This document shows, piece by piece, positions 27 to 6,908 of a stretch of DNA of 20,374 bases. Location: positions 1 to 20,374 of the IMG/VR virus record IMGVR_UViG_3300046010_000554, one strand, 5' to 3'. Numbering within the stretch: the stretch's first letter is position 1; every line of letters starts with the position of its first letter. Position numbers and translations under genes: made by a program. Origin of the DNA: a virus. Below the pieces are notes generated by a model. That model was not told the origin of the DNA and made no database searches. It was given only the letters and a program-made list of their open reading frames with translations.

Positions 27-201
27 GGGGTGGTAGCTGGGCTTCCCCCGCCCAACCTTCACGGGCTATCACCCCACCTTTACAGGGCGTTAAGCCGCCC
101 CAAGAGGATGTGGCAAGTAGCGAGTTTTGCGGCTTTCTGCGTTACATGAAACAGTCCACCAAATCTTGCCCTGTCTTTTTACTCTTGTATAAGACTTAGG
201 G
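27..201 (+). ncRNA. Candidate structured small RNA, no known family recognised
   Basis: This stretch is GC-richer than its surroundings and has no convincing gene. Visible pairings are: 27-37 with 65-75 (11 bp, one G:U), enclosing 38-42 with 50-54 (5 bp, loop of 7); 85-89 with 96-100 (5 bp, loop TTAAGC); 117-122 with 140-145 (6 bp, one G:U), competing with 112-117 with 165-170 (6 bp); and 173-177 with 191-195 plus 169-172 with 198-201 (9 bp with a TT bulge). The last hairpin is followed by only a short TTT, so it is a weak terminator at best. A TATAAT sits 7 bases before the first stem. I do not recognise a tRNA, 6S RNA or riboswitch. It could instead be the 3' end of a longer transcript or a DNA-level signal such as an origin. 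A reading frame open from the left edge to a stop at 147-149 competes with this call but gives a protein tail I do not recognise. Confidence 0.3.
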
Positions 202-230: not shown

Positions 231-239
231 TGGTATAAT
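231..239 (+). promoter_or_regulatory. Extended -10 promoter for the rightward mini-operon
   Basis: TGGTATAAT at 231-239 is a textbook extended -10 element (TGn plus a perfect TATAAT). No good -35 hexamer is visible at 15-18 bases upstream, which fits extended -10 promoters that do without one. Transcription would begin near 246. It gives a leader of about 25 bases before the first start codon at 271, with the ribosome-binding site at 256-264. It is likely read by host sigma-70 RNA polymerase. Confidence 0.6.
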
Positions 240-270
240 GTAGTTATAGTAATTGAAAAGGGGGAATTAA

Positions 271-450
271 ATGTCTGCATGGAAAAAAGTAATTCGCTAT
301 TCATTACGAGTAGATGGCAAATTTGAAAACCAATATACAACGCTAGAAGCTGCTAAACGCCAAGCCGCAAAATATCAAGCAAAAGGCAAATCAACTTTAA
401 TCAAAGAAGTAGAAGTCGAATGTATGTCTGTTAATTTTGGTGTAATTTAA
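271..450 (+). CDS. Small unknown phage protein, 59 aa (first gene of rightward operon)
   Basis: The gene starts at ATG 271 behind a strong purine-rich site (AAAAGGGGG, 256-264) and stops with TAA at 448-450. The product begins MSAWKKVIRYSLRVDGKF and is rich in Lys. Its pattern suggests two beta strands (residues 6-20), one amphipathic helix (about 25-39) and a last strand (43-50). This shape loosely resembles the small three-stranded DNA-binding folds of integrase arm or AP2 type, but that is only a guess from pattern. It is the first gene after the extended -10 promoter, so it should be expressed early and strongly. Function is not known. The good ribosome-binding site, the downstream operon and the balanced composition make it a believable gene despite its size. 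Confidence 0.72.
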   Translation: MSAWKKVIRYSLRVDGKFENQYTTLEAAKRQAAKYQAKGKSTLIKEVEVECMSVNFGVI

Positions 451-470
451 AAATTCATAAAGGGGGATTT

Positions 471-563
471 ATGAAAGATGTTTTATTAGGTGTAATTGGG
501 GGGCTGATTGCCTTTGGCATACCAGCTATTGTGTATGTTGTATATACAGGGGGTATATCGTGA
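471..563 (+). CDS. Single-span membrane mini-protein, 30 aa
   Basis: ATG at 471 is preceded by AAAGGGGGA (459-467), as strong as the sites of its neighbours, and TGA is at 561-563. The peptide starts MKDVLLGVIGGLIAFGIPA and is almost wholly hydrophobic from residue 4 to 26, then ends GGIS. It is therefore predicted to be one transmembrane helix with a very short charged N-terminus. Its stop overlaps the GTG start of the next gene by four bases (GTGA at 560-563), which suggests translational coupling. The role is unknown. Small phage membrane peptides of this kind can act in superinfection exclusion or host membrane alteration, but nothing here proves that. Confidence 0.6.
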   Translation: MKDVLLGVIGGLIAFGIPAIVYVVYTGGIS

Positions 564-769
564 GTTATATTAATACCATTATGATGGGCGATACGCCTGT
601 CGATGTTTACGGCACAGAATGTTCAGCCGAACCCGATGTGGGCCTAATGACTGACTATGTTGATATTGAGGACTTAAAAATAGGCGGTGTAAGCGTCTAT
701 GAGTTGTTTGCGTCTTACGGTCTATTAGACAAAGCGCAAGAATATATTAACGATTCATGGGGGGGATAA
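560..769 (+). CDS. Small acidic unknown protein, 69 aa
   Basis: The gene starts at GTG 560 behind AGGGGG (548-553), with its first bases shared with the stop of the gene before. The product starts MSYINTIMMGD and is acidic (many Asp and Glu, few Lys), with the segment TDYVDIEDLKIGGVSVYEL in the middle. No membrane span or known motif is visible. Small, strongly acidic phage proteins are often inhibitors of host DNA-binding enzymes or DNA mimics; that is a family-level analogy only. Its TAA at 767-769 overlaps the next ATG by one base. Confidence 0.72.
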   Translation: MSYINTIMMGDTPVDVYGTECSAEPDVGLMTDYVDIEDLKIGGVSVYELFASYGLLDKAQEYINDSWGG

Positions 770-996
770 TGAAAGCGTTTCCAAGTACAGAACCTATTTA
801 TGGCAATGACATTATTGGTGTTAAAGAAAGTGCAGGCATGGACTTGCGAGATTACTTTGCAGCTAAAGCTATGCAAGCCGATATAACAAATTATGAAGAT
901 AACAGCAAATTTGGCCCTGATTTTTGGTCATGTGAAAGTATTGCAAAAAGAGCATACAACATGGCTGACGCAATGATGAAAGCGAGAGAAGAATGA
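769..996 (+). CDS. Small unknown protein, 75 aa
   Basis: I place the start at ATG 769-771, not at the in-frame ATG 757. The G-run at 759-765 is the ribosome-binding site in the style of the neighbouring genes, and the TAATG overlap with the previous gene is typical. The upstream ATG has no such site. The product begins MKAFPSTEPIYGND and includes a likely helical C-terminal half (CESIAKRAYNMADAMMKARE). It is mixed in charge and has no membrane span or motif I can name. The segment MDLRDYFAAKAMQADI is also seen in small uncharacterised phage and prophage proteins that begin with a short Met-Asp-Leu-Arg-Asp-Tyr-Phe-Ala-Ala block; their function is unknown. Confidence 0.75.
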   Translation: MKAFPSTEPIYGNDIIGVKESAGMDLRDYFAAKAMQADITNYEDNSKFGPDFWSCESIAKRAYNMADAMMKAREE

Positions 997-1196
997 ATAC
1001 ACCATACAACACAGGCAAAGTAAAGATTGGGTGCAATTACCAAAAGCCACGGTATGTTGAAGAAGATATGGATATGCTACGGTTACAGTCTTATTTAATC
1101 CATGACCCCGCCCGTTTAAAGCGAGAGTATTGGACTAACAAAGTCCTAATTTGGGTTGGGGTGTTTGTTTTAACTATCGCAATCTTGCAAAGCTAA
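993..1196 (+). CDS. Small C-terminally anchored membrane protein, 67 aa
   Basis: ATG 993 overlaps the previous stop by four bases (ATGA), with GAGAGAAG just upstream as a moderate ribosome-binding site. Residues 1-48 are soluble and basic (MNTPYNTGKVKIGCNYQ, then an acidic-to-basic stretch with HDPARLKREYW). Residues about 50-66 (KVLIWVGVFVLTIAILQ) form one hydrophobic span, so the protein is predicted to be anchored at its C-terminus with the soluble part in the cytoplasm. It ends 27 bases inside the 3' end of the oppositely oriented endolysin gene. Function unknown. It is the last gene of the rightward operon. Confidence 0.7.
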   Translation: MNTPYNTGKVKIGCNYQKPRYVEEDMDMLRLQSYLIHDPARLKREYWTNKVLIWVGVFVLTIAILQS

Positions 1197-3924: not shown

Positions 3925-4518
3925 TTATTCATACAAAATGTTAATAGTGCCAGCATCGAAAGTGTCTGTGCCGTCCATGTATAAACGAACAGCAGTAGCT
4001 ACTGCTCCTAAATCTACTGAACCACCACCATAAGAAGGAATGGTTGAAGTTGCTGTTCCAATATTTGATGTATATGTCCAAACATTAGTAGATAGTCGAG
4101 TACAAACAATTGTTCCTGAATATAAAGCTGCCGCAACCGCAGTTCTTTGTATAGCAAATCCATCAGTAAACGATGAAGATGCCGCAGTTCCACCAGCAAT
4201 TGCACCAACAATAGAAACATAGGTGGCTGAATATGTAGGAGTTCCACCTGTTCCTAATTGAACTCGCATAGCTGTTGTTCCATTAGTGGAAACACCTTGT
4301 ATCATTACAGTTATGCGTTGAACCCATGATGGTATAGATGTAAAAGCTACAGAAGTGCCACTTGCAGATACAGAAGTACCAGCAGTAATAGCACTATTTT
4401 GACCAGCAACAACCAGTGTTCCCGTAACGGCAGGTAAATTTAAAGTATTAGTACCAGCAACGGCTGGTTCTGAAAGCGTAATACTTCCGCTAGTTGAGCC
4501 TAATAAGACAATAGACAT
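3925..4518 (-). CDS. Tail-fibre protein, paralogue of the gene downstream (197 aa)
   Basis: The first 40 residues (MSIVLLGSTSGSITLSEPA, then TLNLPAVTGTLVVAG) are a typical fibre N-terminal repeat found in many phages, where the TLNLPxxTGTLV stretch leads into the shaft. Residues 44-197 are the domain shared with the next gene, ending with the same 15-residue motif. The N-terminal parts of the two paralogues differ, so the C-terminal domain has been duplicated or joined onto different stems. It would be a trimeric beta-structured fibre tip outside the virion. Nine bases separate it from each neighbour. Confidence 0.75.
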   Translation of the reverse strand: MSIVLLGSTSGSITLSEPAVAGTNTLNLPAVTGTLVVAGQNSAITAGTSVSASGTSVAFTSIPSWVQRITVMIQGVSTNGTTAMRVQLGTGGTPTYSATYVSIVGAIAGGTAASSSFTDGFAIQRTAVAAALYSGTIVCTRLSTNVWTYTSNIGTATSTIPSYGGGSVDLGAVATAVRLYMDGTDTFDAGTINILYE

Positions 4519-4527
4519 ATATTTTCC

Positions 4528-5427
4528 TTATAAAACGACCCAGCGACTACCGCTTGGTACAGTTACCACGACACCGCTATTAATTGTAATGGGTGAAACA
4601 GTCGATGCGTTCTTTCCCGCAGGAATTTGATAAGAAGCCGTTACCGTTTGGCTGTTTTCCACAAATACTTGGTCACCGCCATTACCTGTTGCTCCACCGC
4701 CAATTTGACCCCATACGCCTACTTTATAAGAACCTACAACCGTTGCTGAGCCTGCGGGGTCGGTCAGCATCGTATAAGTAAAGGTTGTATCGCCTGTAAC
4801 AGTAATGCTAAAAGTGCCGTTATACGCACTTGGCGTAGCACCACTAACCGTTACAAAAGCACCTGTGGTTAAGTTATGATTGGCGGCAGTTGTTAAAGTA
4901 GCGGTGGTCGTGCTGTTGGTAATCGAACTAATGGTCTGTCCGCTATATGTCGAATAGCCCTCAAAAGTCTGTAAGGTGGTGTTATAACGAATTGAACCTA
5001 CAGCAGGGGTAGCCGAGCGTTGAGCAGTCGTACCGTTTGGCAGTTTTACCTGACCTGTGCCGTTTACCGCCAAATTACCAGCCATTGTGGTATCGCCAGT
5101 AACCGACAAAGTGCTATTTAATGCAGTAGCACCTGTAACCGTTAGGGTAGAAGAACATACCACAGCACCACCAAAAGTAGGGGTGTTAAATTGAGAATAG
5201 TTAATAGCATCGCCATTAACTGTACCAGTAGCAAGGTTTGTAACCTTATTACTATTCATGTTTAATGGGCCAGTCATCGGGGTCTGACCATCGCTTGCTA
5301 CCGAACCCGTGAGTGCGGAAGCAATATCGTTCATGGTGTTATTAGCCCATGTTGACGAAATAACTGTTTGGCTAACTACTGGATTACCAGCAGGTAGGGA
5401 ATATGTACCTGACCCGTTTCTACTCAT
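4528..5427 (-). CDS. Tail-fibre protein with N-terminal adaptor, FCCH-like module and C-terminal cap (299 aa)
   Basis: Residues 1-70 (MSRNGSGTYSLPAGNPVVS, then STWANNTMNDIASALT and MTGPLNMNSNKVTNLA) are a very common phage fibre N-terminus thought to attach the fibre to the tail. A repeat-like shaft follows (90-130, TLTVTGATALNSTLSVTGDT). Residues 137-160 carry the RSATPAVGSIRYNT motif. Residues 166-236 are a beta module like that called E1-FCCH-like in automatic annotation (NHNLTTGAFVTVSGATPSAY). The last 42 residues (258-299) end GSRWVVL and match the end of the fibre at 18092-19660. It is probably the anchor fibre to which the three smaller products relate. It overlaps the gene upstream by four bases. 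Confidence 0.85.
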   Translation of the reverse strand: MSRNGSGTYSLPAGNPVVSQTVISSTWANNTMNDIASALTGSVASDGQTPMTGPLNMNSNKVTNLATGTVNGDAINYSQFNTPTFGGAVVCSSTLTVTGATALNSTLSVTGDTTMAGNLAVNGTGQVKLPNGTTAQRSATPAVGSIRYNTTLQTFEGYSTYSGQTISSITNSTTTATLTTAANHNLTTGAFVTVSGATPSAYNGTFSITVTGDTTFTYTMLTDPAGSATVVGSYKVGVWGQIGGGATGNGGDQVFVENSQTVTASYQIPAGKNASTVSPITINSGVVVTVPSGSRWVVL

Positions 5428-6908
5428 TTTTGTTCCTTTTTCTTAGCACCTGCTCGCATTAAAGCAGCTAATTTATTGACATCACCTTTTCTCATTTTAG
5501 TGGCAGCAGCCCTAGCACCATAAGCACCAGCAGTTAAACCCAATCCTAATGGGCCACTTACGGCAGTAGTCAAAATAGATGGCAATATGCTACTAACTGA
5601 GCTTGTTGGGGCGAATTTACCAAAAATACGAACCACATTTTGCAAATTAGAACCACGAACAGCTTGTTTAATGGCTTCTTGTTCCTCAGCCGTAAACATC
5701 CGCATACGCTTTTCGTTAGTGGCTAACTTTTTAAGTTCGTTGTACAAAGCATTTTCTAAACCTGACTGAGAAAACTTGCCTTTAGTCAATTCTGCTGTTT
5801 CTAACATATCGTCAAAAATTTCAGCCTTGCTCATGCGACTGTAAACATCTCTAGCTTCTTTCCAAGCTTGTAAACCTTGTTTGTCACCAGCTTTGATAGA
5901 TGATTCAGGAATATTCAAAACATAATCGTCAAATTTGTCTTTAAGAATAGTTGCCAAGCGTTTTTCTTCAAGGTCATTACTTTTTTGTGCGCCCTGAATA
6001 AACTTACGCAAAGTCTTTAATTCATTGTAATCTTTAGGAATTTTGGCGTTTTGCAATTCATCAAATGCTACGCTTAATTTAGGATATGAACGAGCGTCAT
6101 AACCTTCTTCACGCAACTCTTTTCCAAAAGTTTTCATAGTATTAGAAAAATCTTTTGCGTTTAGTTGAATATTAGATTCTTTAGCTTGTTTAAATAATTG
6201 GCTAGACATTGTTGCCAAATCTTCAGCAGAAGGGGCTGTAGCAATACGCATTTCCATTTCAGATGGCGTTCTGCGTAACGCTTCTGCTACTTTTGCAGGT
6301 GCTGTTTTAACAACTTCAGGCACAGCTTGAATAGCTTGACTTACGGGCTGTACAACATTTTGTCTAACTGTAGGTGTTGCCGTTGAAGCCATTCGAGCAT
6401 AACTAGGCAACATACCAGTTGTAGGAATAACAGGTGGCAATTTAGCGGCTTCTGCTACCTGACCAACATCTTGTAAAAATTCTTGGGCTACAGGGCTTGT
6501 AGGCGTGTAAGTCATGCGTCTAGCTAAATCACTTTGGGCTTGTTGACCCACTTGTATTCCTCGTTGTGTGCCAAACTCAGGGCTTGTAGCCGACTTATAC
6601 ACACCGTATGCAGAACTTACAGGGCCTGCAACCGCAGCAGAACCAACAGTTAATGGCACTTCATACAAAGCTTTAACCCTATCCATCATAGTGCGCTTTG
6701 GTTCAGGTTTTGGTTCGGGTCTTGGTGTTTGGCTAACAACTGTAGGCACATCTGAGTTAATAATGTTTGAACCTAAAACTTGCTTAGTTTTTGGGTTATA
6801 CAGTTTTTGGGCTTGAGCAATAACTTCTTCTTGAGTAGCCCCAACTGGGCCAATCAATGTTATTTCTTTACCGTCAGGGGCAACGACTGTATATTCTTTT
6901 TCAGCCAT
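5424..6908 (-). CDS. Probable virion internal / DNA-ejection protein (494 aa)
   Basis: The N-terminus (residues 5-37, YTVVAPDGKEITLIGPVGA, then a helix TQEEVIAQAQKLY) is a short domain seen at the start of many virion proteins of short-tailed phages. A Pro/Glu/Lys linker follows (62-71, PRPEPKPEPK). The rest is mostly helical, with a long charged region (about 215-420). Near the C-terminus a small-residue, hydrophobic, possibly membrane-active stretch (SILTTAVSGPLGLGLTAGAY) is followed by a basic tail. Length, helix content and the place between other such proteins and the fibres agree with ejection proteins that leave the capsid with the DNA. No enzymatic motif was seen. The ATG overlaps the previous stop by one base (TAATG). 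Confidence 0.6.
   Translation of the reverse strand: MAEKEYTVVAPDGKEITLIGPVGATQEEVIAQAQKLYNPKTKQVLGSNIINSDVPTVVSQTPRPEPKPEPKRTMMDRVKALYEVPLTVGSAAVAGPVSSAYGVYKSATSPEFGTQRGIQVGQQAQSDLARRMTYTPTSPVAQEFLQDVGQVAEAAKLPPVIPTTGMLPSYARMASTATPTVRQNVVQPVSQAIQAVPEVVKTAPAKVAEALRRTPSEMEMRIATAPSAEDLATMSSQLFKQAKESNIQLNAKDFSNTMKTFGKELREEGYDARSYPKLSVAFDELQNAKIPKDYNELKTLRKFIQGAQKSNDLEEKRLATILKDKFDDYVLNIPESSIKAGDKQGLQAWKEARDVYSRMSKAEIFDDMLETAELTKGKFSQSGLENALYNELKKLATNEKRMRMFTAEEQEAIKQAVRGSNLQNVVRIFGKFAPTSSVSSILPSILTTAVSGPLGLGLTAGAYGARAAATKMRKGDVNKLAALMRAGAKKKEQK

Follow-up and report, generated by a model that had tools for sequence, protein, structure and literature searches.

Between their replication or recombination genes and their lysis genes, phages carry early accessory clusters of small, variable, co-directional genes. 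The cassette described here likewise consists of small, variable and co-directional genes leading from the replication/recombination side to the lysis side; it differs in that fixed genes (O2, O3 and O5 below) frame its variable slots, and in that a conserved structured RNA heads it. Among described RNAs, two kinds offer themselves for comparison with the latter. Type III antitoxin RNAs of the ToxI kind are made of tandem short pseudoknot repeats and adjoin a gene for a ToxN-like nuclease. The other is Atu_At1 (Rfam RF02496), a little-studied small RNA of soil bacteria of the Rhizobiales, whose Agrobacterium copy, pAT_55271R, is a 118-nt RNA running at ~140 nt on Northern blots, a discrete expressed species whose ends are confirmed by 5' and 3' RACE and whose abundance changes with growth condition (RPKM 45, 866, 3597 and 877) (PMC3738593).

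The window, meaning the whole stretch of DNA analysed here, is an entire IMG/VR virus record of 20,374 bases. As a sequence-only reading had proposed, five rightward open reading frames occupy positions 271-1196 of the + strand: O1 (271-450, 59 aa), O2 (471-563, a 30-aa single-span peptide), O3 (560-769, 69 aa, with a GTG start), O4 (769-996, 75 aa) and O5 (993-1196, 67 aa, with a conserved N-terminal part and a C-terminal membrane span). The overlapping GTGA, TAATG and ATGA junctions that it described are seen in the cluster, as are G-rich Shine-Dalgarno-like stretches ahead of O1 to O4, with none ahead of O5. Its two single-span products are O2 and O5, whose maximal Kyte-Doolittle hydrophobicity (19-residue window) reaches 2.33 and 1.86 respectively, against 0.86 or less for O1, O3 and O4. 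The extended -10 promoter that it placed at 231-239 (+) is present as TGGTATAAT, but there is no -35-like hexamer upstream and the site is statistically weak; scanned with a generic consensus, the first 3 kb gave 5 promoter-like sites versus 6.4 in shuffled sequence, which is no excess.

Frames this short, for which Pfam gave no match above cut-off in any of O1 to O5, might be chance ORFs. In comparisons with relatives, however (equal-length matches only, at least 50% identity), all five are under purifying selection, with dN/dS of 0.16 for O1 (2 comparisons), 0.26 for O2 (41), 0.06 for O3 (11), 0.21 for O4 (1) and 0.23 for O5 (46), the range of 0.06-0.26 thus including O1 and O4 on 2 and 1 close comparisons. 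Gene order is also conserved, contig L085 having all five genes in the same order, and because of this order and the low dN/dS the frames are taken to be more than chance. One of the variable positions described below (slot B) is, moreover, cleanly empty rather than broken in four contigs. A chance origin is hence scarcely credible for the set: it is already refuted by these comparisons for O2, O3 and O5, the comparisons for O1 and O4 being few. The cluster ends head-on against a GH108 endolysin gene (1170-1691, - strand; Pfam PF05838, 2.4e-28, and PF09374, 1.3e-16; phrog_315 endolysin) that is convergent with O5 and overlaps its end by 27 nt.

At its left edge the window cuts a gene of which only the end remains (1-19, +; bases 2-19 translate as AKNKL-stop), and relatives carry a whole PD-(D/E)XK exonuclease gene at this place. 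Since the window starts in the last codons of this exonuclease, the cluster stands behind an early gene of the same strand. Further left, beyond the window's start, relatives carry on this strand a 74-aa gene, the gene of a replication initiation protein (NGO0469 family of NCBIfam, E 1.3e-58), a 65-aa gene and the PD-(D/E)XK exonuclease, to which L087 adds an ERF recombinase, and beyond these upstream genes lies a divergent YdaS/Cro-like regulator. Replication and recombination genes upstream on the same strand support the earlier assignment of the cluster to an early-type module, and are consistent with its being the distal, accessory end of the phage early region. The phage group looks lytic, because no integrase was found among 15 long relatives, though the records may be incomplete. 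The five-gene cluster is real, yet of an ordinary kind among phage accessory modules; it belongs to a freshwater phage, and its genes are in part swappable cargo.

What the sequence-only reading missed are two exchange slots within the cluster and a structured RNA just upstream of it. The slots emerge when the window is compared with 11 contigs (L085, L002, L089, L086 and L091-L097) that share 89-97% DNA identity with it in O2-O3 and 90-97% in O5, and with the more distant L098 and L099 (76-78%). The five genes are not one fixed unit: two slots change content or stand empty. In slot A, between the promoter region and O2, the window has O1, as do L085 and L086; L002 and L092-L097 have different small ORFs there, and L089 and L091 lack any such ORF. 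Slot B, between O3 and O5, holds O4 in the window and L085, and different alleles of the O4 family in L002, L089, L092 and L095. In this slot L094 carries a 148-aa fusion, L093 a pair of unrelated ORFs, and L098 and L099 an ORF of 211 aa, and just 0-2 nt are left in L086, L091, L096 and L097. Since slot contents vary at near-identical flanks, O2, O3 and O5 are backbone and O1 and O4 are cargo. O2 is present in most related cassettes, and O3 is itself sometimes missing in farther relatives, e.g. L003. The single-gene mobility of cargo is suggested by O1, which has 4 relatives in IMG/VR and seems to travel alone, because L087 carries it (6001-6180) at 85% identity while the endolysin of L087 is just 53% identical to that of the window. 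The same 211-aa gene that lies in slot B of L099 (6198-6833) is found in L129 between the replication gene and the exonuclease (3956-4591), and cargo therefore changes place. We suggest that the slot genes O1 and O4 may be accessory proteins aimed at particular hosts, and that they would be exchanged by recombination between conserved borders.

The cluster had been described as having no recognisable product. This is partly wrong, as both O4 and O3 match known families; those families have no assigned function. The O4 family has at least 567 confirmed loci in an IMG/VR scan, and by tblastn O4 matches 58 of 50,697 phage records, including Pseudomonas phages D3 (orf38, 1e-5) and PAJU2. Its members read PAFP or MKAFP, then GMxLRDYFAAKAM, then AYxxADAMxKAR, separated by variable linkers, and O4 has all three elements, with its AFP start, LRDYFAAKAM and ADAMMKAR. 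It matches the C-terminal third of phrog_2201 (5.7e-20), as well as phrog_37111 (8.7e-10) and phrog_20565 (3.8e-8); relative to these and to D3, O4 is the module alone, which elsewhere forms the C-terminal part of longer proteins. A weaker match (3.4e-4) leads to phrog_30599, labelled transcriptional regulator, and searches of Pfam and NCBIfam gave no match and no meaningful match, respectively. An AlphaFold2 model of O4 (pLDDT 83, pTM 0.64) predicts a beta-hairpin followed by helices; a structural relative was sought and rejected, the best Foldseek E being 4.2 with no similar solved fold, and a sequence match among solved structures (best E 0.031, a molecule named 4D2) was dropped.

In slot B of L094, an RNA polymerase alpha C-terminal domain (PF03118, 1.2e-14) is joined in one protein to the O4-family module, and L004 has a gene with the same domain (1.7e-10) that overlaps the start of an O4-family gene. 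Fusion or coupling in these two contigs hints at a role in transcription. The domain is not a regular companion of the family: among 50 records (49 of 80 O4-family loci, plus L094) it occurred in 2 only, both times at the module, and L094 had been chosen for its fusion, so that L004 alone is independent. In L082 (MW202462.1), tblastn placed an O4-family frame at ~1090-1233, between the erf and exonuclease genes, where nothing is annotated except the exonuclease start. Literature searches covering few subscription journals gave no match for the motif LRDYFAA and only unrelated matches for GGPAFP. The O4 family is a clear candidate for functional work.

O3 has 25 loci and 3 partial matches in phage records; its residues 4-42 match phrog_18992 (5.1e-6), its C-terminal part has no match there, and its AlphaFold2 model has a pLDDT of 63. 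O5 has 81 loci and no match in phage records at E<=0.1, and PADLOC matched none of O1 to O5. Superinfection exclusion, which, with host take-over, the sequence-only reading had raised for such clusters, is possible for this one. O2 and O5 would act at the inner membrane, and their single hydrophobic spans, their fixed place in the cassette and the abutment of O5 on the endolysin gene could be taken to mean that the cluster serves mainly to supply a membrane module, one that excludes superinfecting phages or times lysis. We regard this as unlikely, given that O2 and O5 have no family match and that the convergent orientation sets O5 apart from the lysis operon.

More surprising than the gene cluster itself is the conserved pseudoknotted RNA that precedes it, at 84-172 (+). 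It comprises four nested helices, P1 (84-88/168-172), P2 (102-105/164-167), P3 (110-114/154-159) and P4 (117-122/140-145), and a pseudoknot (92-98/129-135) in which AAGCCGC pairs with GCGGCUU of the P4 loop. This upstream stretch is better conserved than the proteins, L169 having 74% nucleotide identity over 117 nt as against 43% for its O5. From 176 matches with full flanks we obtained 104 distinct cores, of which 38 representatives with less than 93% identity make up alignment A1. Across these 38 sequences 96.9% of 1025 pair cells are kept versus 82.5% in shuffles, a percentage biased towards the structure because the latter was read by eye and then counted on the same alignment. Double changes and slid controls are stronger evidence: double changes occur in 18 of the 27 pairs, compared with 10.6 in shuffles, and the covariation score of 0.423 stands against 0.148 in shuffles and at most 0.093 in slid controls. 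The pseudoknot helix is paired in 100% of cells, with five of its seven pairs invariant and one double-changed in 9 sequences. A local hairpin in its stead (columns 11-14/21-24) was rejected, being paired in 93.4% of cells with one double-changed pair. The structure contains 32 G.U cells versus 2 A.C cells and therefore belongs to the + strand transcript, the strand on which it is conserved. Folded alone by minimum free energy, the window copy does not yield this structure, and its z-score of -1.18 is unremarkable. Because single-base indels occur inside the core, a non-coding core is favoured. TTTT follows P1 within 14 nt in only 24 of the 38 sequences, so that a shared terminator is not evident, and AGGATG is invariant in all 38.

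The RNA pattern is found in at least 120 stretches of IMG/VR, and in a genome collection of 84,980 species it gave 2 chance-like matches; these cellular matches (L384 and L385) have no RNA 3' half by eye and were left out of all counts. Its surroundings were followed in 136 contexts, which are distinct sequences and not independent lineages, 126 of them with at least 300 nt upstream. A PD-(D/E)XK exonuclease lies directly upstream on the same strand in 120 of these 126, with a median of 67 nt (range 39-643) from its stop codon to the RNA. In four of the six exceptions the RNA stands almost gapless behind a SprT-like gene (L299 by Pfam; L300, L328 and L343 by eye), in L326 it is upstream of a YqaJ-like exonuclease gene (by eye), and in L373 the exonuclease was not recognised. 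Downstream, 69 of the 83 contexts with more than 2.5 kb of sequence have, among the next five ORFs, one that is convergent and measures 100 aa or more, mostly after 2-4 small ORFs, and in 31 it resembles the endolysin of the window.

Several smaller elements flank the core. Between the exonuclease and the RNA (27-75, +) is a leader that, by eye, forms a hairpin (GGGGTGGTAGC / GCTATCACCCC) and varies in sequence between phages; it carries a CCTTCAC motif and may be part of the RNA. A TATAAT at 15-20 straddles the exonuclease stop codon, as it does in many, not all, relatives; the RNA may be transcribed from it, or it may simply be coding sequence. Within 200 nt after the RNA, 74 of 130 contexts have the dyad TTAAG(N2-6)CTTAA. 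The window does not contain it and has TTAGGGTTTGTCCTAA at 196-211 instead, a dyad by pattern and a possible operator. The dyad has 98 other copies, and the 40 listed are mostly found 1.7-3.5 kb upstream, close to the divergent regulator, a place read by eye for a few of them. Some relatives, such as L160, carry by eye TTGACA-17-TATACT at the dyad region.

When the first 300 bases of the window were compared with Rfam, RF02496 was alone among 4227 families in being reported at E<=10, with a match at 78-174 that spans model positions 1-108 of 108 (26 bits; E 0.024 and 0.011). The gathering cut-off of this family is 60 bits, so that the window RNA lies below it, and some of the pairs are non-standard. 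Full-length matches at E<=1 were obtained in 11 of 18 other phage records, at 12.8-27.1 bits and all below the cut-off, and none in the other 7. Searched with a 100-nt plasmid copy, 199 of 72,556 plasmid records gave a match, mostly those of Agrobacterium and Rhizobium, and twelve plasmid copies share a pre-loop strand, a hairpin with a UUUU..UUUC loop and pairing between the two, with compensating changes by eye in L393 and L398. Common to the phage and plasmid RNAs are thus the order of helices, the GU(C/U)AA strand, and the UUUU..UUUC-loop hairpin with its loop pairing to the 5' strand. They differ in that the phage RNA is A+T-richer and scores 26 bits against the cut-off of 60, in that the plasmid RNAs carry additional sequence separating P4 from P3 and form a local 5' hairpin that is less well kept in phages, and in their neighbouring genes. 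Of the two, it is the Agrobacterium RNA for which discrete expression is known.

The resemblance might also be convergence, an unrelated phage fold having arrived at similar loops. Scores against RF02496 are sub-threshold, the reverse search with the phage RNA model R1 found none of L387, L388 and L389 at E<=10, and a viral intermediate with the rhizobial loop, sought among viral contigs, turned up in 0 of them. We nevertheless consider convergence improbable, as a single family of 4227 was reported, as the match runs the whole length of the model in the window and in those 11 other records, and as the 12 plasmid copies agree with the phage RNA in the order of helices and in how the loop pairs. 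Because full-length but sub-cut-off matches and shared plasmid-copy features are accompanied by a failed reverse search, the phage RNA is probably a divergent relative of Atu_At1 and not a member. The pAtC58 copy is just upstream of ligD and near Ku genes, two other Agrobacterium copies are upstream of ligD, and one Rhizobium copy is near Ku. A general tie to DNA-break repair was rejected, as the other six annotated copies are near other genes: BrkB; GABA transaminase with AbiEii/UdgX-type genes; CsbD; a PRC-barrel protein; VirK; and a chemotaxis protein. Two further plasmid records are without annotation at the RNA copy. Literature searches that covered few subscription journals gave no match for Atu_At1 by name, none in a combined Agrobacterium search, and no fitting title for a phage RNA of this kind; 55271R was traced to a single paper.

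Taken as a whole, the locus is somewhat better explained than not, in our estimation, as an early-region cassette with two slots and a trans-acting pseudoknotted RNA. Its layout from left to right would be the exonuclease end, the ~90-nt pseudoknotted RNA, a promoter, a slot with O1, the fixed pair of O2 and O3, a further slot with O4, and O5 as a fixed membrane protein, head-on to the endolysin. The phage RNA would accumulate as a discrete trans-acting small RNA, like its probable Agrobacterium relative, and its invariant loops and pseudoknot may bind a host or phage factor, thereby serving the early programme. That the RNA is discrete and acts in trans through its invariant loops is what we infer, and its constant place behind the exonuclease would also fit a role in cis.

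The chief competitor of a trans-acting RNA is such a role in cis, at the 3' end of the exonuclease. In this case the RNA, standing where exonuclease and cargo meet, would be an attenuator, an antiterminator or a conserved 3' end, and would protect the exonuclease mRNA or determine how much transcription reads through into the five small genes, as its fixed position (in 120 of 126 contexts behind the exonuclease, at a median of 67 nt from its stop and followed by small genes) and the TTTT soon after P1 in 24 of 38 sequences might suggest. Yet the RNA of L326 is upstream of a YqaJ-like gene and four others are behind SprT-like genes, so that the RNA is not tied to one message; the Agrobacterium relative is a discrete RNA with its own mapped ends; and a promoter-like site lies between the RNA and O1. 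We therefore hold a cis role to be a serious but lesser possibility.

The RNA could also serve as a decoy and thereby neutralise some host defence, of which type III toxins and RNA-binding regulators such as CsrA are examples. The AGGATG that is invariant in 38 of 38 phage sequences resembles a CsrA site; there is just one such site, however, contigs have single RNA copies among the matches listed, and the plasmid copies L393-L396 do not keep GGAUG, on which ground a CsrA sponge was rejected. As to the toxin, the tandem repeats of ToxI-like antitoxins are not seen with the phage RNA, which has one match per contig among those listed, and its adjoining gene is the PD-(D/E)XK exonuclease in 120 of 126 contexts. 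A precedent is the phage mimic described for the ToxI pseudoknot (PMC3475682). On balance we think a decoy very improbable, and retain the discrete trans-acting RNA as the preferred reading.

Small genes beside phage early regions are a main source of unknown anti-host functions, and as fixed and exchanged small genes can now be seen apart, experiments can be aimed accordingly. The RNA connects an orphan, expressed rhizobial sRNA to a large set of phages, and its covariation-backed structure offers a pseudoknot to break and restore. It is tempting to speculate, as a tentative reading that we would not yet favour, that one pseudoknotted fold is common to many freshwater phages and rhizobial megaplasmids as a functional trans-acting sRNA, which on the phage side would belong to the recombination/early module. 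The RNA might then act on a host factor, for instance a nuclease, RNA polymerase or an RNA-binding protein, and the slots may be a site at which anti-host proteins are exchanged.
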